From positions 1 through 64,000 of the forward strand of contig JBBHKE010002319.1 in NCBI GenBank assembly GCA_037447655.1: a DNA stretch of 64,000 bases. The letters are read 5' to 3'. This DNA is from Zygnema cylindricum (taxonomy: Eukaryota; Streptophyta; Zygnematophyceae; Zygnematales; Zygnemataceae). Positions within the stretch are counted from its first letter, which is position 1. Every line of letters starts with the position of its first letter. The notes below the pieces were generated by a model. The model was given only the letters and a program-made list of their open reading frames with translations, ran no database searches and had not been told where the DNA came from. The position numbers and the translations under genes are program-made. Shown here in pieces: positions 6,545 through 43,419 of the stretch.

Positions 6545-7240
6545 GGGCGTGTTCCCATGTAACCGATATTTTGAAACGTTATTTTGGAATTTAGCGCTGA
6601 TTTTACGGTGTACTTTTCAAAGTGTGCCTATGTGAATCGTTACTTGCGCGTTCATTATTTTGAATATGTGGCAGCTGTACACGTCGCCAATACTTGCGAA
6701 ACCCAAACTGCTGACATTTGTAGACGCCAACGATCTCGGAACAAAATGCCGACATTTGTACGCCGCAAAGAGATCCTGACATACTGGGACAATTGTCGAC
6801 GCCAGTTGTCATTTGTTGAAGCCCACACGTGAACGACATAATCAATCGCCTACGTCTACAAAATGACATTTGTAGACACCCACAAGTGGACAACATAAGC
6901 AAACGGACAAACACCTTTTTTTTCGTGTACTCTCCCAACCGCAAAAAAAATTTTGAAAACGTTTGACGCTTGCAATCCAGGTTTTCCATTCGTCAATAGG
7001 GTAGTATTTTGACTAAAATCAGATCGCGATTTGATTCCAGTGCAAGTGTGAAGATGAGCTGGAAGTGGGTCGCGATGATTATAACGCCAAATTGCCGTAC
7101 CTTCCAAGTTCCAATATGACGCAAAATGTACTTGTGTTTTTGCCCATTTTTCGTACGGCGTAATATTTTCTCGTTGGAAGTCCCATTTTCTGTGAAAACG
7201 ACGGAAAAAAACCCTTACTTGAACACATGGGAACACGCCC
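6545..7240 (+). mobile_element. Harbinger-like MITE, left member of an inverted pair
   Basis: A 696-bp element that begins GGGCGTGTTCCCATGT and ends ACATGGGAACACGCCC, with TAA on both sides. The inner part has several short repeats around TTTGTAGACGCC and TTTGTAGACACC. It is nearly identical, in reverse orientation, to 7757-8452. The long open frames inside are mirrored in both copies and show no protein family, so they are not annotated as genes. Confidence 0.85.
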
Positions 7241-7756: not shown

Positions 7757-8452
7757 GGGCATGTTCCCATGTGTTCAAGTAAGGGTTTTTTTCCGTCGTT
7801 TTCACAGAAAATGGGACTTCCAACGAGAAAATATTACGCCGTACGAAAAATGGACAAAAACACAAGTACATTTTGCGTCATGTTGGAACTTGGAAGGTAC
7901 GGCAATTTGGCGTTATTATCATCGCGACCCACTTCCAGCTCATCTTCACACTTGCACTGGAATCAAATCGCGATCTGATTTTAGTCAAAATACTACCCTA
8001 TTGACGAATGGAAAACCTGGATTGCAAGCGTCAAACGTTTTCAAATTTTTTTTTGCGGTTGGGAGAGTACACGAAAAAAAAGGTGTTTGTCCGTTTGCTT
8101 ATGTTGTCCACTTGTGGGTGTCTACAAATGTCATTTTGTAGACGTAGGCGATTGATTATGTCGTTCACGTGTGGGCTTCAACAAATGACAACTGGCGTCG
8201 ACAATTGTCCCAGTATGTCAGGATCTCTTTGCGGCGTACAAATGTCGGCATTTTGTTCCGAGATCGTTGGCGTCTACAAATGTCAGCAGTTTGGGTTTCG
8301 CAAGTATTGGCGACGTGTACAGCTGCCACATATTCAAAATAATGAACGCGCAAGTAACGATTCACATAGGCACACTTTGAAAAGTACACCGTAAAATCAG
8401 CGCTAAATTCCAAAATAACGTTTCAAAATATCGGTTACATGGGAACACGCCC
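7757..8452 (-). mobile_element. Harbinger-like MITE, right member of an inverted pair
   Basis: This is the reverse-oriented partner of 6545-7240, with the same length and near-identical sequence. It begins GGGCATGTTCCCATGT, ends GGGAACACGCCC and has TAA at 7754-7756 and 8453-8455. The pair plus spacer makes a palindrome-like structure of about 1.9 kb. Confidence 0.85.
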
Positions 8453-15343: not shown

Positions 15344-15554
15344 CCTACAAGATGAGTGAAGACTGCAGAGGTGGAGACTCTACCTGCCCTAAAACGTGTA
15401 CCATGCTGCAGCTCTTGCAGTGACAGAAGCAGAACCTAGCCGCCATTGCTAGGAAAGAAGGAAATAAAGAAAACATGAAAACAAAAAAGTGAAGTAAGGA
15501 ATATAAGTATATATGAAAAGAGAATAGGCGGCGCATGCTTCCGCGCATACTTCC

Positions 15555-18500
15555 ATGGCTACTCAGGAAGGTTCGAAGAAAGTCGCTGCAGCTTTACGGA
15601 ATGTGGAAGTCGAGCAGATTGTAGGGCCCGGCAATGATCCCTTCGTACGGATGGGATCATTTTGGAAAGATCAGGTCAGTGATTTTTTTTTTCTTTAGAT
15701 AATCTCGTTTGTGCCTGTCCTATCATTGTTATTTTGGTTTTTTGTGGTTTTCTCTGCTTTGTTTCCAGTATTCAGGTCGTGTGAGAAAAGGCTATTCGTG
15801 GTGGTGTTGCATTTGAATGTGAAATAGTTCAACGGGTAATGAATCGTTAAATTTTTAGCAATTTTTTCTCTCCCTCTCCCTCTCCCTCTCCCTCTCCCTC
15901 TCCCTCTCCCTCTCCCTCTCCCTCTCCCTCTCCCTCCCTCTCCCTCTCCCTCTCCCTCTCCCTCTCCCTCTCCCTCTCCCTCTCCCTCTCCCTCTCCCTC
16001 TCCCTCTCCCTCTCCCTCTCCCTCTCCCTCTCCCTCTCCCTCTCCCTCTCCCTCTCCCTCTCCCTCTCCCTCTCCCTCTCCCTCTCCCTCTCCCTCTCCC
16101 TCTCCCTCTCCCTCTCCCTCTCCCTCTCCCTCTCCCTCTCCCTCTCCCTCTCCCTCTCCCTCTCCCTCTCCCTCTCCCTCTCCCTCTCCCTCTCCCTCTC
16201 CCTCTCCCTCTCCCTCTCCCTCTCCCTCTCCCTCTCCCTCTCCCTCTCCCTCTCCCTCTCCCTCTCCCTCTCCCTCTCCCTCTCCCTCTCCCTCTCCCTC
16301 TCCCTCTCCCTCTCCCTCTCCCTCTCCCTCTCCCTCTCCCTCTCCCTCTCCCTCTCCCTCTCCCTCTCCCTCTCCCTCTCCCTCTCCCTCTCCCTCTCCC
16401 TCTCCCTCTCCCTCTCCCTCTCCCTCTCCCTCTCCCTCTCCCTCTCCCTCTCCCTCTCCCTCTCCCTCTCCCTCTCCCCTCTCCCTCTCCCTCTCCCTCT
16501 CCCTCTCCCTCTCCCTCTCCCTCTCCCTCTCCCTCTCCCTCTCCCTCTCCCTCTCCCTCTCCCTCTCCCTCTCCCTCTCCCTCTCCCTCTCCCTCTCCCT
16601 CTCCCTCTCCCTCTCCCTCTCCCTCTCCCTCTCCCTCTCCCTCTCCCTCTCCCTCTCCCTCTCCCTCTCCCTCTCCCTCTCCCTCTCCCTCTCCCTCTCC
16701 CTCTCCCTCTCCCTCTCCCTCTCTCCCTCTCCCTCTCCCTCTCCCTCTCCCTCTCCCTCTCCCTCTCCCTCTCCCTCTCCCTCTCCCTCTCCCTCTCCCT
16801 CTCCCTCTCCCTCTCCCTCTCCCTCTCCCTCTCCCTCTCCCTCTCCCTCTCCCTCTCCCTCTCCCTCTCCCTCTCCCTCTCCCTCTCCCTCTCCCTCTCC
16901 CTCTCCCTCTCCCTCTCCCTCTCCCTCTCCCTCTCCCTCTCCCTCTCCCTCTCCCTCTCCCTCTCCCTCTCCCTCTCCCTCTCCCTCTCCCTCTCCCTCT
17001 CCCTCTCCCTCTCCCTCTCCCTCTCACTCAATTTCACAATTGTGGGAATCGTTACATCTTATTTGCCGATTCGATTCCCTTCGTCACTTTCGTTGTCTTG
17101 CTACTTTCGAGTCAGGATCAATATTTGTTTGAATATCCTCATTCGACAACAAACATAATCGATTTCAAATGTCGTGTTTCATTCCTGCGTTTGTGTTTCA
17201 TTCCTTCATTTTGTTTATTTCAAGGCTTTTTATGATTATGGATCTTTTGCTTCAGGTGCATTTCACGTCGACTAGAGTTCAGAATTTGATGCCGATTTCT
17301 TGTTGTAGCACATGAAAATTTCCCAAAATCAGGGCGAGTGCATTATATAACCTATTAATTATATAAAATTGTATATTATATAAATCGTGACACACGGTTA
17401 TACTTTTTGAAATGAGTTTGGCATCTGCAGCTAAGGTAAGCTTTTGACCCACTGACTTGACGGCTCGAGAACATAAAACCAGATCAGTAGAGCTTATACT
17501 TATGACGCTCAGCATTTGAATATGACTGTGTTTTTTTTTTTCTTCTCTTCTTTTCTTTTCTTTTCTCTACTTTTGTTTTTTTTTCTGTTCTTTTTTTTCT
17601 TTTCTTTTTTTTATTGGCAGGTGGTTGTTTTGCATCTCTTGCGGCGGTTTGGGTGACGACTGTGTCGCGGAGGGGCCATGGAGATCTCTCGAGCGATCCC
17701 TCTCCTCCGCCGAGCCGGTGTTCGTGTAGTGGGTGTAGGTAAGTTTAAGAAGAGTCAATTAATATGGTTGGTTCGTTTTCTTTTTTGGAAAGAGAATAAT
17801 TATCTCAGCTGGTCTGTTGACGTGGAAATTGGCTGTTTAACTCCTTTGTGAAAGTATTTCGCTGAGAAAATGAGATTCTGATTGGTCCTTATGTGAAAAC
17901 TGGTCAGGGACCAGTGTGGTAGTTTCTTAGAAGCCCCCCTTGTTAAAAATTCAGTTATTTGAACATATAATACCGTATAATTGGTGGAAATGCACTGCTG
18001 CTATGCTTGTCCTGTTTGCTCTGCCAAAAAATAGAATAAAGGAAGAAAAAAAAGAAAACAAACAGAAAGAAACGGTTGCATTTCAATGACTTCCATTTCT
18101 ACTTATTGTAACCAGATTTTTTGTATACACTGGAGCTTTAAAATGCAATTTTATTACTGATTTTGTAACTGATAAGAGTTTGGATTTAACAATGGCAGGT
18201 CTGGAGGCCTTAGGAGTAGAAGATTTTGTAGCGGGCGGGTTCTGGCAGGGAGAGTTGTACATTGATCATGGAAAGAAGGCTTATAAAGCTCTCCAGTTGA
18301 AGTCCTCGGGCATTATCGGTGCCGTTTCTCAACTTGTGTTTAACCGTAAAGTGAGGGACGAGTTGGTTCGAACCAAAGACATTCCGATGAACTTTGTTGG
18401 AGACGGACTGTGAGTTTTTCATCTGGTTCGACCTAATTATACTAATAGGGGGATTACACGGAAGCTATTAGTGGCGTTCCTGGTCAGTAATCGAGTAATC

Positions 18501-19344
18501 GCTTAAAAATATGTATGATCCGTACATTTTTCTGTGCGCTTCTGCAGTTAGTGGCCTGTTAATCCGTTTGTATAGCTACCTTACAAGCTGAAAGGGTGTT
18601 ATTTGATTTCACCACTATGGGGTGTTAAAATAATTGCGAAGATAATCCTGAAAGACCCTTGGAGAGGAGGGTTTAAAGCAAAATATAATTGGTCTGACCA
18701 TGAAGGCGTGAATCTCATGCACTTCAGTTATATATTCTATTCAACATCTTGTCTATGTGGTAAATGATTATAGTATCAGCAGGCTGGCAATATAATACAA
18801 AAACTGATCTGCCAGAAAAAAAGTGCAAATATAGCATAAGAATCGTAACATCATAAAGTTATCGCATTTAAAAACTCAGCGCCCAGAGACAAATGAATGA
18901 ATTTGTCTAATAGGTTAATTATACCTACTCTAAAACTGGTGTTACTGGCAAGTCATCATAGAAACCTTGCAGAATATTGTACGACTCGTACAGTTTTCTG
19001 TACTTTACTCTGGTTATTGGCCAAATATGCCAACTATAGCGTTATCTTGAAAAGTTAAGAGCTATAACATAACTTCCATCGTCGTCGTCTGTTTTATAAC
19101 ATGCTTCAATCATGTTTTCTTGTATTATCTGTTTTCTGACTGTTTCAGGCAACATGGAGCCACATTTGTTATGGATATTGGAGGAGCCATGATTTTGGAC
19201 TTCAGACAAGACGATTTTGCCGCCTATCCTTCTCCGGAATCTCTCCTCGAGGCTTGCGGTCTCTCCTCTCGTTCTCTCAAACCCTCAAAATTGAAGCACT
19301 CTAATGGGAATACCTGTGGTGAGCTTTGCCAATCAAAGGACTAG
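15555..19344 (+). CDS. SELU: Selenoprotein U (peroxiredoxin-like 2 / PRXL2 family), TGA-encoded selenocysteine
   Basis: Four exons join in frame: 15555-15674, 17621-17738, 18199-18409 and 19149-19344. They give about 214 residues, the usual PRXL2/SelU length. All introns are GT-AG, and an in-frame TAG at 15525 precedes the ATG. Exon 2 reads [11 protein letters not shown], then TGA, then [17 protein letters not shown]. In PRXL2A the same place reads RRPG-Cys-x-x-Cys-R, so the TGA replaces the first Cys of the thioredoxin-like CxxC and gives UxxC. Exon 3 has the family's [18 protein letters not shown] block. Exon 4 has [18 protein letters not shown] and a C-terminal LLEACGL. A SECIS element follows at 19557-19603. 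The protein is expected to be a thioredoxin-fold oxidoreductase; its substrate is unknown. The alternative is a pseudogene with one nonsense codon, but every other part of the frame and all splice sites are intact. Confidence 0.9.
15867..17025. repeat. 1.16-kb (CCCTCT)n array in intron 1 of selenoprotein U
   Basis: About 190 near-perfect hexamers lie on the plus strand, (GGGAGA)n on the minus strand. The phase is broken only three times: near 15931 (one CT lost), near 16478 (one extra C) and near 16721 (one extra CT). The purine strand has regularly spaced GGG runs and mirror symmetry, the known requirements for G-quadruplex and triplex (H-DNA) formation. Arg-Glu and Gly-Arg open frames across it are artefacts. 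Confidence 0.97.
17654..17656 (+). other. Selenocysteine (UGA) codon
   Basis: This TGA is in frame within exon 2 of the selenoprotein U gene, 11 codons after the splice acceptor. It is followed by CGA CTG TGT CGC, so the motif is U-R-L-C-R. The frame stays open and family-like on both sides and through two more exons, which argues against a true stop. Confidence 0.88.
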
Positions 19345-19389
19345 AAATAGAATTTCTTGGAGGTCACTGCCCTAAAAACAAAAAAACGG

Positions 19390-19505
19390 GGAATGATATG
19401 GGTTTCTATTTACATTTTTTGTTTATTATCGGCATTGAAAAAACAAGAAATGGGGAACATTATGGGTTTCTATCAACATTTTTCGGTATTATCGGCATTG
19501 AAAAA
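19390..19505. repeat. Tandem duplication in the selenoprotein U 3' UTR
   Basis: Two copies of about 60 bp share TATGGGTTTCTAT, an ACATTTTT run and TATTATCGGCATTGAAAAA. They lie between the stop codon and the SECIS element and do not alter the latter. Confidence 0.8.
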
Positions 19506-19556
19506 TGCGTGGTACTGGTTTTTTCCGATTTTTTTTGAATCGATGAGTGGCAAGGT

Positions 19557-19603
19557 ATGAAGTTGTACTCAGAAAATGCGGTCGCAAGACGAGTACGATG
19601 GAA
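19557..19603 (+). promoter_or_regulatory. SECIS element (eukaryotic, form 2-like)
   Basis: The 5' core ATGA (19557-19560) is followed by exactly 12 bases and then AA at 19573-19574. The helix is formed by GTTGTACTC (19562-19570) and GAGTACGAT (19591-19599), nine continuous pairs including two G-U. The 3' core GGAA (19600-19603) supplies the GA for the tandem sheared G-A pairs. Above the AA bulge, TGC-GGTC-GCA can form a small extra stem, as in form 2 SECIS elements. It lies 213 bases past the stop codon of the selenoprotein U frame, on the same strand. SECIS elements recruit SBP2 and eEFSec to decode UGA as selenocysteine. Confidence 0.88.
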
Positions 19604-19674
19604 AAAACTGGAGCAATTGTTACTGTTTCAGGTGCTCTCAAAGAGGATGACATGAAAAGGAAAAAACGGATAAA

Positions 19675-30312: not shown

Positions 30313-31440
30313 GTATCTTCCATCTGCCGCTTCGATCAAATTAGGTTACAGCTCTTCCGGCAAAAAGCCCAGGCTGCTTGCCACGCTACATTACATTACA
30401 GAACTGTCGCATAGAACGAACACAGCGTCAATACATATCTACATTAGCTTTAGATCCATAGGCGTTAAAAACGTAAAATCATGCTTTGTAGCGTGTATTT
30501 GGACGCGAAACTACAGTACTGAAAGTAACTGATTTTATACATACATGAAATTCCATAACAATTTCCTTCAGAACATCTTCGAAAACCTTATAAACCCCAC
30601 TCATGCCTAACCAACATCCATTTTACAACATTCCATTTTTTCCATTTTACCAATGTCTGAAATAAGACATTTCATTTGTATACACAAAACTTATAGACTA
30701 TAATTCAAAACACAAAAGATTGACAGCTATTTGAAACACACAACAACAGGTGAACAATTCCCTTGCATTAAATAAATAAATATAGACTCTGTGACTGCAA
30801 CCATGGAAATGCAATCCAATCCTCAGGCTTGAAAAGGGAATGCTGCAAAATGTTCTTCTATTTAGTCTGGAAGTTGAGTGGCCATTTCTTTACGAAGTAA
30901 GATAGTATAATCAAACCACCTGAGAACGCGAGGAATAGTTGTGTAACACCGTGACTCCCCATTTAATCACATTTATGTGGTTGCCATTTTTATTTGAACT
31001 CTGGCCACAAAATGCCATTATAAATAGCAGCCGTTTCTTTTCTTAACACAAATTATTTTAACCGACCCAGAAACATCCACATTATTCACACCGGCAAAAA
31101 AATTATTGACACTAAAACACTCATACTAATTGGTTCTTAGCACTAACAGCAACTCACGGTGTACCTCACGACTTTTCCAAGTTCTTCTGCAGCTTTCCCA
31201 AGTTCTTCTGCAGCTTTCTCAAGTTCTTTTGCGGTTGTCCCCAATTACCTTATGGCTTCTACTAGTTCTTTTACGGCTTATCCTAGTCCCTTTACGGCTT
31301 TCCCTAAATCTTTTCCTGTTTTCCCTGGTTCTCTGTTCGACGTGCACCACCCTCACTAATTGCCAACTGATTCACCACATGTCTAGAGCATCAAACATCA
31401 AAATCAACTTCATGGGGAAAGTAAACTTTTTCTCGTTTAT
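30313..31440. other. Intergenic up to the copia remnant
   Basis: No conserved gene is seen. At 31165-31320 there is a run of imperfect 24-base units built on AAGTTCTTCTGCAGCTTTCC. These stay open in several frames but match no protein that I recognise. Confidence 0.4.
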
Positions 31441-31462
31441 CATCATCGCCATTGTCATTGCC

Positions 31463-32178
31463 ATCGATGTCATGGTCATCGAATTTGTAGTTCCGTATAC
31501 TCCAGAGCAAAACGGAGTATCAAAAATACTTAACGGAACTTTAACGGAAAGTGCAAAATCTATGATGTTGGATAAAGGGATAGATTTTAAGTTTTGGGGT
31601 GAGGCTTTCTCTTGTGCCTCTTATATAAGAAATAGAGTGAAAACTAAAGCAGTGAAAAGAAAAACACGATATGAAGTGTGGACAAGGAAAAAGCCTAATG
31701 TTAGTCATTTCCAAGTTTTTGGGAGCAGATGTTTTATTTTAGATAATCTGCCTATTTCTAAGCTTAGTCCAAAATTGATCCCTGGGATTTTTAGGGGATA
31801 TGATGATGAGTCAGTCGGCTATAGAGTATACAATACAGATACGAAAACTCTTCCAGCTGCTAGGAATATTCTGGTTAAAGAGGAAAGTCAATCAGTTGAT
31901 ATATTTGGCATGACAGATATTGAGAAAAATGCAAAAATCCAAGAATATGTAATTTTTGAAAATGTCCCTTTTACATCTTCCACCTCATCTTTTCCTATTT
32001 CTCCTCTGGACACTCCGCTTGTCCAAGATACTCGTCATTCACCTCCACCTCCTCCCCGTCGCCGACAACCTACGGATCCAACAGTTACAGCATCAGATTT
32101 TCCGGGGGGAAAAAGGCAAAACAGCAGGCTGCGAGGCGGCGAAGCTGCGCTATCAAGCAGCGAATCTGCGACACTGTG
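31463..32178 (+). pseudogene. Copia integrase, C-terminal part (broken)
   Basis: The frame has the PYTPEQNGVSKILNGTL motif of the integrase catalytic core (E of the DDE triad), then FWGEAFSCASYIRNR and the VFGSRCF and FRGYDDESVGYRVY motifs of copia integrases. The upstream catalytic aspartates and the zinc-binding domain are absent. From about 32100 the frame runs into a degenerate GCGAAGCTGCG repeat (32130-32300) that has replaced the normal linker, and it stops at 32177. Confidence 0.85.
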
Positions 32179-32300
32179 ACGCTGCGAAGCTGCGCTGTTA
32201 AACTACGGCGGCGAAGCTACGTTGCTAAACTGCGATGCTGCGAAACTGCGAAGTTGAAAGGCTGCGAAGTTGCAAAGATGCGATGTTGCGAAGTGCACCG
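32130..32300. repeat. Degenerate GCGAAGCTGCG repeat inside the copia linker
   Basis: About fifteen imperfect units related to GCGAAGCTGCG or GCGAAACTGCG follow one another. They lie between the integrase and reverse transcriptase parts and carry stops in the element's frame. Confidence 0.75.
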
Positions 32301-32332
32301 GTAGAGCCTGCTCTGCTTTCTACCAGCACGAC

Positions 32333-33730
32333 AGAACCGGCCACCATACTAGAGGCTTTTTCAGCTCCAGAAAAATATCAATGGATCTCCGCGGCGAATG
32401 ATGAAATGCGATCGATAATGGAGGCTCATAATGGGAGCTTGTAGAACTTCCGCTGGACCGAAAGGCAATCGGCTGTAAGTGGGTCTTCAAAGTTAAGCTA
32501 AATCCGGAAAATTCCATTGAAAGATATAAAGCTAGACTTGTTTCAAAAGGCTGTAGTCAGAAGGAGGCAATTGACTATGAGGAGACTTTCTCTTCGGTTG
32601 TCCGGTTTCCATTGTTGTATATGTAGATGATTTGTTGCTACTGAGTAAGTCATTAAATGAGATCAACAAAATAAAAGCAACCTTGAATTTAAGATTTGAG
32701 ATGAAAGATTTAGGGGAGGCAAAGTATATTCTTGGAATTCAAGTAGAAAGGGATAGAGACAGGAGAAAAATCTATCTAACGCAACGGGAAGCAATAGGGA
32801 ATGTGCTTGAAAAATTTGGCATGTCAGAGGCAAAGGGAAGTGCCACTCCCATGGAATTTAAGCAGAAAGTGGAAGACACAGAGATCGACGGAGGAGTCAT
32901 TATTGACGACACCTTGGAGTCAGGGGAGGCATATTTTATGGCCAACATTCCATACCGGCAGATTGTTGGCAGCCTAATTTACTTCATGAATTGCACTAGG
33001 CCGGAGATTGCGGCAGCAATCGGTGCTCTGAGCCGGAGTTTGCAGAATCCAACAAAAACAGATTGGGAGGAAGCAAAGAGGGTTCTTCTGTATCTTTCGA
33101 GAACACGAAATCTTCGACTTGCTCTCGGTGGAGAGGAAGTAAAAATTCAGAGTTGGAGTGATGCTAGTTACGGAGACATGCCAAACTATCGTTCCACCAC
33201 TGGATTTATCTTGAAAATTGGAAGTGGAACATGTTGCTGGAGCACCAAGCTTTAAAAGATAACAGCTAAGTCTACAATGGAGGTTGAATACATGGCGGTA
33301 AGCTCAGCTGTCAAGGAGTTACAGTGGGTAAAGTCTCTCCTTTAAGAGCTTCATTTCATGCAATCAGGATCTGCTTTAAAAGGTAACAGCTCAGTCTACA
33401 ATGGAGGTTGAATACATGGCGGCAAGCTTAGCGGTCAAGGAGTTACTGTGGGTAAAGTCTCTCCTTGAAGAGCTTCATTTCATGCAATTAAGATCTCAAA
33501 TAGTTTGGTGTGATAACCAGGCAGCTATTGCGATTGCATCTAACCCAAGTCATCATTTCAAAAGCAAACATATTGATATCAAGTTGCATTTTGTGAGAGA
33601 GAAGGTGATGAATAGGATTTTGAAAGTCAGTTATCTACCAGATGAGATGATGATAGCTGATATGATGACTAAGTCTTTACCTGCACATAAATTGAAGTTT
33701 TGTAAAGAGGAATGTGGACTCAGTGGTTGA
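32333..33730 (+). pseudogene. Copia reverse transcriptase and RNase H (broken)
   Basis: The part around 32345-32610 matches the start of the copia reverse transcriptase, with a frame change near 32430. The sequence then jumps at about 32610 directly to the catalytic YVDDLLLL box (32620-32645), so roughly 70-80 residues of the palm and fingers are missing. RNase H follows (SWSDASYGDMPNYRSTTGF and the closing HIDIKLHFVRE). A 124-bp tandem duplication at 33251-33495 shifts the frame inside RNase H. The element cannot be active by itself. Confidence 0.85.
33251..33498. repeat. 124-bp tandem duplication in copia RNase H
   Basis: The segment beginning TTTAAAAGATAACAGCTAAG recurs at 33375 as TTTAAAAGGTAACAGCTCAG. 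The copies keep the same order through GGTTGAATACATGGCGG and AAAGTCTCTCCTT. The offset is 124, not a multiple of three, and each copy has its own substitutions. Confidence 0.9.
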
Positions 33731-38525: not shown

Positions 38526-41500
38526 TCAGAGAGGTCTATTGCTGGGAGTTATTACCGACCGGATTCTACTGGCAACAAGATTTGGATGTGGATCATTCCG
38601 AACGCATCGACATCGGACGGATGTGAGTGCCAGACATCCACTCACATTGAGTGAGTTTTTCTCGGGACACGTGTGAAGGGCCGGAAAAGCGTCACAGACT
38701 GACTGAACAGCAGTAGCATGGAGACAAATGCACCCACTGAGGTTGAGGGAGACAAGTTTTGGAGAGGGAATAGATGCCTTGTCCGGCATTGCAAGGTTGT
38801 AATATTGTCTGTGAAAAAAGAAACGAACACCATCAGGAATAATAGGAGACATTCAGAAACCAAAACATCCAGAAGAAGGTAAGGGAAAAATTTGTGTCAA
38901 ACTCCACAAAACCGTCCGTCGAGGTTATGCAGTCTGTATCTCTCGTCACTCATTCAGCGAAACATACATACATACAAGCATGACATAGGAGAGCGAATGA
39001 ATCACCTTCGATGTGTTAAGCCTGATGAAGGGCCAGATTGATAACTTTTGCTGTCTAAATCAAGACTATCTTCCACTTCAGAAATGTCATGGTTTTCAGC
39101 GTTGCCTCCTTTCCCATGAAGATGAAGCCTAAGCCCAGCAAAAACCAGGCTTGCATCAGCATGTTTACATGTAGGATCTGCCAACTCTTGTAAGATCTTC
39201 ACCATAAGCATTAAAAAACTCTCATGAAAGCTTGACTATATTCAACCAAGAAAATGAACTTACACGTAACAAAACACACCAAACATTTCCATATTTACTA
39301 GATCATTTGATCACTTTAACGCCTTCCTACCAGCACACTTTCAGCGAGCAACAACATTGGCATTTTCTCCAATTGTGACATGAACAAATAAAATGATTTC
39401 CTGACTAACGAAATTGCATTTTGAGGCCCTCGCACACCAGAAGTCATAAGGCAAACATGTACCTTCTAGACATTGCAACTAGCGCGTGCATGGAAAGGTC
39501 CGTTATCAGTCGACAACAATGGAGTCCAAGAGCTGCCAGCTTCGGACAGTGATCAGCCAATGCAACCACACTTTTGTCTGCATTACCATCATGGAGACTG
39601 TCAAGTTAATTGTAAGCGTCAACTTGATATTAGGTGGACTGAAGTCAAGTGCAGTGAACTGGTTACTAGGCAGGGTCATATGAAGACGAATCTGTCCATC
39701 AAGACATACAAGACATCATTATCTGTTTCTCATGAGAGTTTCCTTGCAAGAACACAGAAAAACTTTACAAAAACCTTTAAAATAATGTACCTGTGATGAG
39801 GAGGCAACCACAGAGGTCGACGATTTCGATAGCTTGACAGCCTCTTGCTAAAGCCGTGACTCCTTCGTCAGTAATTCGCTTACACCAACCTAAATTGAGA
39901 GATTGTAGAAAACAACAGCTCCTTGCGAGAACCTGCAGATAAAGCGATCCTAAATTCCTAAATATAAATTCAGCCGATTCAGTTTACCTGAATACAATCG
40001 ATGCAAGATATCAGAGGATAACACGAGCACATATGACCTATCACGGACATCTCTATCAATGTACAACCAAGACATTCCATGAAGTGAAATGCTTTCAGAA
40101 CAGGCCTTCACATCAATCATAAAAATGCCCAAAGTTTTTGCTTCACCTGCATTACTCGGTCTGTCGAAGCTTTCTCACAGCCACAGAGGTTGAGTCGCCT
40201 TAAAGACGAGCATGCGGCAGCTATGGCCTCCACCCCAGCCTCCCCTATACTGAGACATCCGCTCAAGTCTAAAACCTGTCCAAAGGCAGTTCCAATCTCT
40301 TTTAATCACAAATTGCCATACTGTCAAATTGTTGTAAACCTTACCAGCCTTGAAGCGCCAATGTTCGGTTTCAAAGTAGCTGAAACAATTTCTGCCATGA
40401 GAAAGCATTCAGATCTTCCTACCAACTTTCAGCAAAGTTGGTATTTTTCTGAATACTGTCCTCTACTCCATGGAAAACTGAAGAAAGACCTAGCTTCTCA
40501 AAGCTGCACATAACAAAATTCAGCAACAACTTCGGATGTCCTATGTCCGCTTGCTGAACGTCAAAAAAAGCTGTTCAAATGCCTGTCCATACTTTAACCA
40601 TAAATTTTGGTGATTAAGATGCTTCCCCAAATTAAACTCTAGGAATGTAAAGCACTTTCCCCTGAAAAGACTAGTGCCTTTTCGAGCTCTTGTGAGGGCT
40701 CAGTTACTTGACAAGTTTGTTAGTTTGTTTTCACTGTTTCGATTCTAGCATAAACGAAGTTGTAAAGAAAACATTTTTTAATTTGCCTACCGCCAAATCA
40801 GGACATCCCGATGCCAGAACTTGCATAGAACGGTCGGTGAGTCGGACGGCAGTGGAAAGGTCAAGAGCTCTCAGACTTTGACAATTTGACGCCACAGCCT
40901 CCATAGCTTCATCGGACAACAAGGGGCAACGGCGAAGGCAAAGAATCTGCAAAATGGAAGCACAGGATTTAAGACTCAGTTAAGAAGACTTAGCTAAAAT
41001 TTCAACAACCTGCAACAAAGTATGCCTGCTTTCTAGTCCAGACCATACCGTAATGACTCATAAGCAGTTATAGAAGCAGAACCGTGACTTATCTGCTGGT
41101 TCTAACCAAGGCTAGAAAAGTTAACTTTCACCTGTATCAGCCAAGCCCAACTCTAAAAGATAATTGCATTCTACTGACAAACAGATGTGATCTTTCTTTA
41201 TCCTGTGACCTAGTAGAGTACCAATTTTACTATCCAGGCTTCTAGTTGTCTCATTTTCTGTTAAATCACAATTACCACCTCCTATACATTTACTAATATC
41301 ACTACCAATATCATATACCAATCGTTTGCATGGTCGAGATATGGTTCCAATAAAGCGATGTGAAAAAAAACGAGCAACAAACCTGCAAGCTCTTAAAGTG
41401 TCGGATAAAAGATGTCACCAAAGGCGTCACACCTCGTCCACACCTGCAACCTCCCATCTCGGTCATCGTCAGCCTATTGTAAAACCCTAAAAGATAAAAA

Positions 41501-42727: not shown

Positions 42728-43419
42728 CAGTGTGCCAACGATGAAAAGTGAATACCTAATAATAGACTGAGACTAGCGTTTGAATTCACCACAAATTGAA
42801 AAAATGGTGGAGTGTTGGCTATACAGACGTAACATGTTAAAACTTGGATGTAATCTAAATATGCGACAGATACAGCATTGAGTATTAACAGCCGGAAACA
42901 ATCACATGAGCTACTTTTATTTGACTTTTAAACAAACGGTCAGGATTTCTTGTCTATAGCACAATGATACTTCCAAAGTTTCTCCCTTTGACAATGCAAG
43001 CTAAGTTCTCATTCAGACTAAAATCAACATACAGAAAACGTGATGCCTTCTGTGAAATCTTTAGAAGAGAACGAAATTTCATAGGCTCAATCATAAATCA
43101 GCCATGGCTACTGAGGAACAAGAGGTGGCACTAAGCATATCATGCTGGTTTAAGACCTGCCGCAAGTCACCTCTGAACTCAATTCACCCTCGAAAGTCTA
43201 GTCATTAACTATATTCGAACCCGTCTAAAACTACAAATCATCGTTCAACCACGTACTTCCTGATCCATTTGTCGTTATCTACTAGCTGGTGATGGTCATA
43301 GGGCCTATCTTGTTTGAATCAGATTCACAACTCAGCGAAGCCTCAACAACAACAAATCGTCGCCTTTCTTCGACCTTTGTTGCGATATCTTCGAAGTAAA
43401 ACTCTCAACACTCTTACAT

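Follow-up and report, generated by a model that had tools for sequence, protein, structure and literature searches.

SelU carries its selenocysteine (Sec) at the first position of a UxxC motif, and selenoprotein genes are expected to have a SECIS element in the 3′ untranslated region (UTR). To our knowledge, land plants have no selenoproteins. Among the 36 algal genomes treated in PMC7539508, SELENOU ranked among the four Sec proteins with the widest distribution, its Sec form being found in more than half of the genomes, and selenoproteins of Nitella and Chaetosphaeridium are described there as known from ESTs. An earlier study (PMC2375036, from 2007) reported SelU in Ostreococcus and Thalassiosira, and three selenoproteins for Mesostigma, an early streptophyte.

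A 2019 paper (PMC6627142) reported Sec machinery, along with a small number of selenoproteins, from every streptophyte algal class; no single transcriptome contained all five Sec factors, but two zygnematophyte genomes contained the full set. A table in that paper gives two Sec matches in liverworts and one in mosses; its authors consider the liverwort and moss factors likely contamination and hold the machinery to be absent from land plants. An expanded gene group is labelled selenoprotein, without detail, in the relevant passage of PMC11096116. The main-text passages of PMC7539508 and PMC2375036 that deal with SelU name no streptophyte SelU, and the literature on algal selenoproteins, as far as its main-text passages go and supplements aside, names no Sec-form SelU for a zygnematophyte.

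Here we describe a gene in a 64-kb window (the whole stretch of DNA that was analysed, 64,000 nucleotides). We interpret it with high confidence as a nuclear SelU gene (PRXL2/AhpC-TSA_2 family) of a streptophyte alga, probably a zygnematophyte, in whose mRNA UGA codon 52 would encode Sec under the direction of a candidate SECIS stem-loop in the 3′ UTR at 19546–19624.

Gene structure and the in-frame TGA

The gene lies on the + strand at 15555–19344 and has four exons that are intact save for one internal TGA. Its features are as follows.

15555–15674, + strand: SelU exon 1, with the ATG start; residues 1–40
15675–17620, + strand: SelU intron 1, 1946 nt, ends GTCAGT..CAG
17621–17738, + strand: SelU exon 2, carrying the redox motif U-R-L-C
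17654–17656, + strand: in-frame TGA, codon 52, at position 1 of CxxC; most likely selenocysteine
17663–17665, + strand: TGT, Cys55, probable resolving partner; aligned with human Cys47
between 17738 and 18199, + strand: SelU intron 2, 460 nt, ends GTAAGT..CAG
18199–18409, + strand: SelU exon 3
between 18409 and 19149, + strand: SelU intron 3, 739 nt, ends GTGAGT..CAG
19149–19344, + strand: SelU exon 4, with the TAG stop at 19342–19344

All three introns have consensus GT-AG ends, and the joined coding sequence of 645 nt comprises 215 codons (214 residues and the TAG), whose sole internal stop is the TGA at codon 52. Upstream of the ATG a TAG stands in frame at 15525, with no ATG between the two. 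The codons at 17654–17665 read TGA CGA CTG TGT, that is U-R-L-C, with Cys at the fourth position. The initial annotation had proposed a single in-frame TGA at 17654–17656 in an otherwise intact four-exon gene, and both this proposal and the overall span given to the gene agree with the 215-codon frame and the exact exons determined here. It is unlikely that a chance stop would fall at exactly codon 52 of 214 with the rest of the frame intact.

Two repeats were observed in and beside the gene: intron 1 consists mostly of a CTCTCC hexamer (193.5 near-perfect copies, 15868–17029), and a tandem duplication of a 64-nt unit (84% matches) occupies 19374–19505, between the SelU stop and the SECIS candidate described below.

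Family identity and predicted fold

Protein searches were carried out with Cys placed at codon 52. The SelU protein matched Pfam AhpC-TSA_2 (PF13911) with an E-value of 6.5e-18 and 65.6 bits against a cut-off of 27, and the original naming of the gene as SelU holds. Only two sequences among solved structures were matched at E ≤ 0.001, both of them human prostamide/prostaglandin F synthase (PRXL2B; 9us9, E 2.6e-26, and 9usa, E 1.7e-23). Codon 52 aligned with the first Cys of the human RRFGCxxCR motif (query 52 to chain 44) and Cys55 with the second, such that U52 and C55 of SelU correspond to Cys44 and Cys47 of the human enzyme; the title of 9usa describes a C44S/C47S double mutant. The homologue and human alignments thus bear out the earlier placement of the TGA exactly on the first Cys of CxxC.

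The reading frame is genuine on either side of the TGA, as judged from sequence homology, because residues 1–51 and 53–214 each match homologues separately: the best match of the former has 63% identity (E 9.7e-20) and that of the latter 75% identity (E 9.8e-90), both E-values refer to a small database built locally from the 29 homologues described below.

A structure was predicted for the Closterium Cys orthologue P0004 from a 24-row alignment (mean pLDDT 87.5, pTM 0.83). In this model, the first motif Cys (residue 58) lies between a strand (48–52) and a helix (59–68). Its top fold match was 9usa (TM 0.66 by query length and 0.89 by target length), followed by 9us9 and then by peroxiredoxin Q/BCP and ResA types. 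As modelled on this orthologue, SelU is predicted to have a thioredoxin-like fold in which the motif starts the first active-site helix.

Homologues at the TGA column

Homologue searches returned three proteins at E ≤ 1e-3 and 29 at E ≤ 1e-10, the latter set containing the former; the 29-protein search scored only the 7998 candidates that shared the most words. Alignment to PRXL2/SelU proteins, which the initial annotation had proposed as a check, was run for the 29 homologues (with P0029 left unaligned), and the residue at the TGA column was read from it. Cys occupies the column in 14 of the 29 (P0003–P0012, P0014, P0015, P0020 and P0021), among which P0004, P0005, P0006 and P0008 carry RRFGCxxCR. 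Two distant PRXL2 relatives, P0018 and P0019, have Trp, which might represent a TGA translated as Trp by the gene caller. Six others (P0001, P0002, P0013, P0017, P0022 and P0027) start two or eight residues past the column; P0022 begins with Leu, and its late start may reflect the end of a contig. The remaining seven (P0016, P0023–P0026, P0028 and P0029) start later or are divergent and are uninformative. In viral and prokaryote contigs, a search with a peptide pattern found 316 and 98 matching stretches, respectively, none encoding a relative.

The three nearest homologues, P0001, P0002 and P0013, are 59–75% identical to the window protein, and all begin 2–8 residues past the TGA column. A PRXL2 tree of 21 rows was built from the window protein and 20 of the 29 matches, leaving out P0014–P0016, P0023–P0026, P0028 and P0029, which were short, partial or near-duplicates. 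Nearest to the window protein were P0001 and P0002 (support 99/94 and 99/98), followed by P0013 as the next by path, at a fork left open, and then by the Closterium Cys forms. The closest named relatives are from Closterium and Spirogloea, the latter presumably so, to go by the style of its gene identifiers. As protein sequences, P0001, P0002 and P0013 look as if each had been cut at a TGA of its own; their late starts could instead stem from incomplete contigs.

These comparisons bear on whether the TGA is a plain stop, either in a recent pseudogene or through a sequencing error that turned the TGT or TGC of a Cys-type PRXL2 gene into TGA. Such an origin would fit with the Cys found at this position in the Closterium, Spirogloea (by identifier style) and lycophyte homologues, and with TGA being one base away from both TGT and TGC. 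However, the 215 codons contain no further lesion and the splice sites are intact, the three nearest homologues begin just past the same column, and a SECIS-like element is present downstream of the TAG, so we regard a plain stop as very improbable. A sequencing error at the TGA was likewise considered unlikely on account of the intact frame, the late-starting nearest homologues and the SECIS-like element.

The TGA might also be avoided, through alternative splicing or through a restart at the ATG of codon 60, yielding a truncated product that lacks the redox motif. That ATG is the first start-like codon downstream of the TGA, and P0001 and P0002 begin at the same residue; in addition, one acceptor after 17683 preserves the frame while dropping residues 41–61, including the TGA. 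Yet this was the only frame-keeping route among the six acceptors tested with the exon 1 donor and the five donors tested with the exon 3 acceptor, and it deletes a strand and the entire UxxC motif conserved in the family. The splice route was rejected since its single frame-keeping acceptor removes the active site, and we give avoidance of the TGA as a whole hardly any weight.

A candidate SECIS element in the 3′ UTR

Downstream of the gene we identified a SECIS-like stem-loop, absent from the initial annotation, whose ATGA at 19557 lies 212 nt past the SelU stop. Its parts are as follows.

19546–19624, + strand: candidate SECIS, from our own descriptors and the fold of 19540–19630
19546–19553 with 19617–19624, + strand: outer helix I of the candidate
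19557–19560 and 19601–19602, + strand: core of the candidate, ATGA (19557–19560) facing GA (19601–19602)
19562–19570 with 19591–19599, + strand: helix II of the candidate, nine pairs
19573–19576, + strand: apical loop AAAA of the candidate
19577–19586, + strand: small top hairpin of the candidate

This layout, as folded from 19540–19630, is what we would expect of a form 2 SECIS. An initial, permissive scan covering 4.2 kb from position 19301 found two adjoining ATGA sites, at 19543 and 19557. A second descriptor, applied to the 64-kb window, gave four sites, two per strand; when the 1000 nt that follow the stop were shuffled 2000 times, 141 of the shuffled sequences matched it too. A strict descriptor, whose criteria were narrowed once the site was known, had a single match on both strands of the 64 kb, at 19557; it matched one of 5000 shuffles of the 300 nt past the stop, one of 5000 for 600 nt and 11 of 5000 for 1000 nt, and none of 40 shuffles of the whole window.

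Several observations count against the candidate. Its 3′ internal loop is long (17 nt), and on its own it had no energy advantage over shuffled sequence (z −0.34; 66 of 200 shuffles were as stable or more so). When 416 nt around it were folded, the nine-pair helix and the top hairpin were kept and the outer helix was lost (z −1.17, with 11 of 100 shuffles equalling or exceeding its stability). An Rfam scan of the 64-kb window at gathering scores found no SECIS family, and a scan with relaxed filters of two stretches around the SelU 3′ region found no SECIS, giving weak sub-gathering matches only. We infer from its position and layout that the stem-loop at 19546–19624 is a candidate for SECIS function.

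The looser descriptor also gave a second SECIS-like match, at 39592 on the − strand, approximately 2.6 kb downstream of an F-box open reading frame (ORF) at 42772–42146; this match is probably due to chance.

Neighbouring genes

A SAM synthetase gene shares the window with SelU.

25864–23190, − strand: SAM synthetase gene, six exons read by eye; TGA stop

The stop codon of this gene bears on whether TGA has been reassigned to Cys or Trp throughout the nuclear genome. Reassignment would accord with the SelU frame being open once the TGA is read as a residue, but the SAM synthetase gene terminates with TGA, and therefore the code is not generally changed; moreover, the lone internal TGA of SelU falls at the one Sec position of the family. 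Wholesale reassignment was rejected on the basis of this neighbour and is, in our estimation, close to negligible in probability.

Among the 120 matches listed out of 7939, the best match of the SAM synthetase was to Closterium (91%), with land plants at up to 90%, two more proteins at 89%, Chara at 82–85% and chlorophytes lower. In a tree of the window protein and 28 of 30 sequences taken from those 120 listed matches, Closterium was nearest by path and the window protein fell in no well-supported group. The initial assignment to a streptophyte with plant-like neighbours is thus favoured by the 91% Closterium match and by the relatives of SelU, whereas the tree places the protein in no well-supported group. 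The host is probably a zygnematophyte, our best estimate being one other than Closterium; Chara was rejected as the host on account of its lower SAM synthetase identity.

The window has a G+C content of 39.8% and also holds aldo/keto reductase exons and the F-box ORF mentioned above; no tRNA was found in its 64 kb by ARAGORN. Retroelement remains at 31130–33730, with SH3_retrovirus and RVT_2 domains, are presumably of Ty1/copia type and contain a 124-nt tandem duplication at 33249–33496. Predicted peptides from 6575–6992 recur on the other strand at 8005–8422, which points to a large inverted repeat.

Proposed mechanism and significance

The initial reading of the TGA as Sec is well supported at the level of sequence, if unproven, by the motif column, the homology on both sides and the SECIS-like element, and Sec insertion at codon 52 appears to be its most plausible fate. 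In the mechanism we propose, UGA-52 of the SelU mRNA would be decoded as Sec, with insertion directed by the 3′ UTR stem-loop at 19546–19624, and the product would be a thioredoxin-fold selenol/thiol oxidoreductase. The attacking residue would be Sec52, positioned where the first active-site helix begins, and its substrate a peroxide or disulfide; Cys55 would resolve the intermediate as an Se-S bond, and cellular thiols would reduce that bond. This chemistry and the choice of substrate are taken by analogy from the family and should be viewed as presumptive.

The initial annotation presented Sec in a plant-like lineage as a surprise. The Sec gene itself is supported; the surprise was overstated, as Sec in streptophytes appears in passages of PMC6627142 and PMC2375036. 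What is gained is one clean gene and no new principle, since streptophyte Sec decoding has already been published. Nevertheless, a clear Sec gene whose near relatives carry Cys orthologues is of help in dating and explaining the loss of selenoproteins in land plants, and the gene is a case in which automatic annotation would truncate or misjoin the protein. We suggest, as a speculation that we would not ourselves favour, that this algal group is midway through losing selenocysteine, or even that Sec was regained here from a Cys ancestor.

Comparison with known systems

The window gene resembles algal and fish SELENOU in having a PRXL2/AhpC-TSA_2 domain whose UxxC motif has a probable Sec in first place, and differs from them in coming from a streptophyte, probably a zygnematophyte. 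Human PRXL2B (9us9, 9usa) belongs to the same family and has its motif at the same position, but contains Cys in place of Sec, and its animal substrate need not hold in an alga. The Cys-type PRXL2 proteins of Closterium, Spirogloea (by identifier style) and the lycophyte Diphasiastrum are 44–55% identical to the window protein over 86–96% of its length, and unlike it they have Cys where SelU would have Sec.
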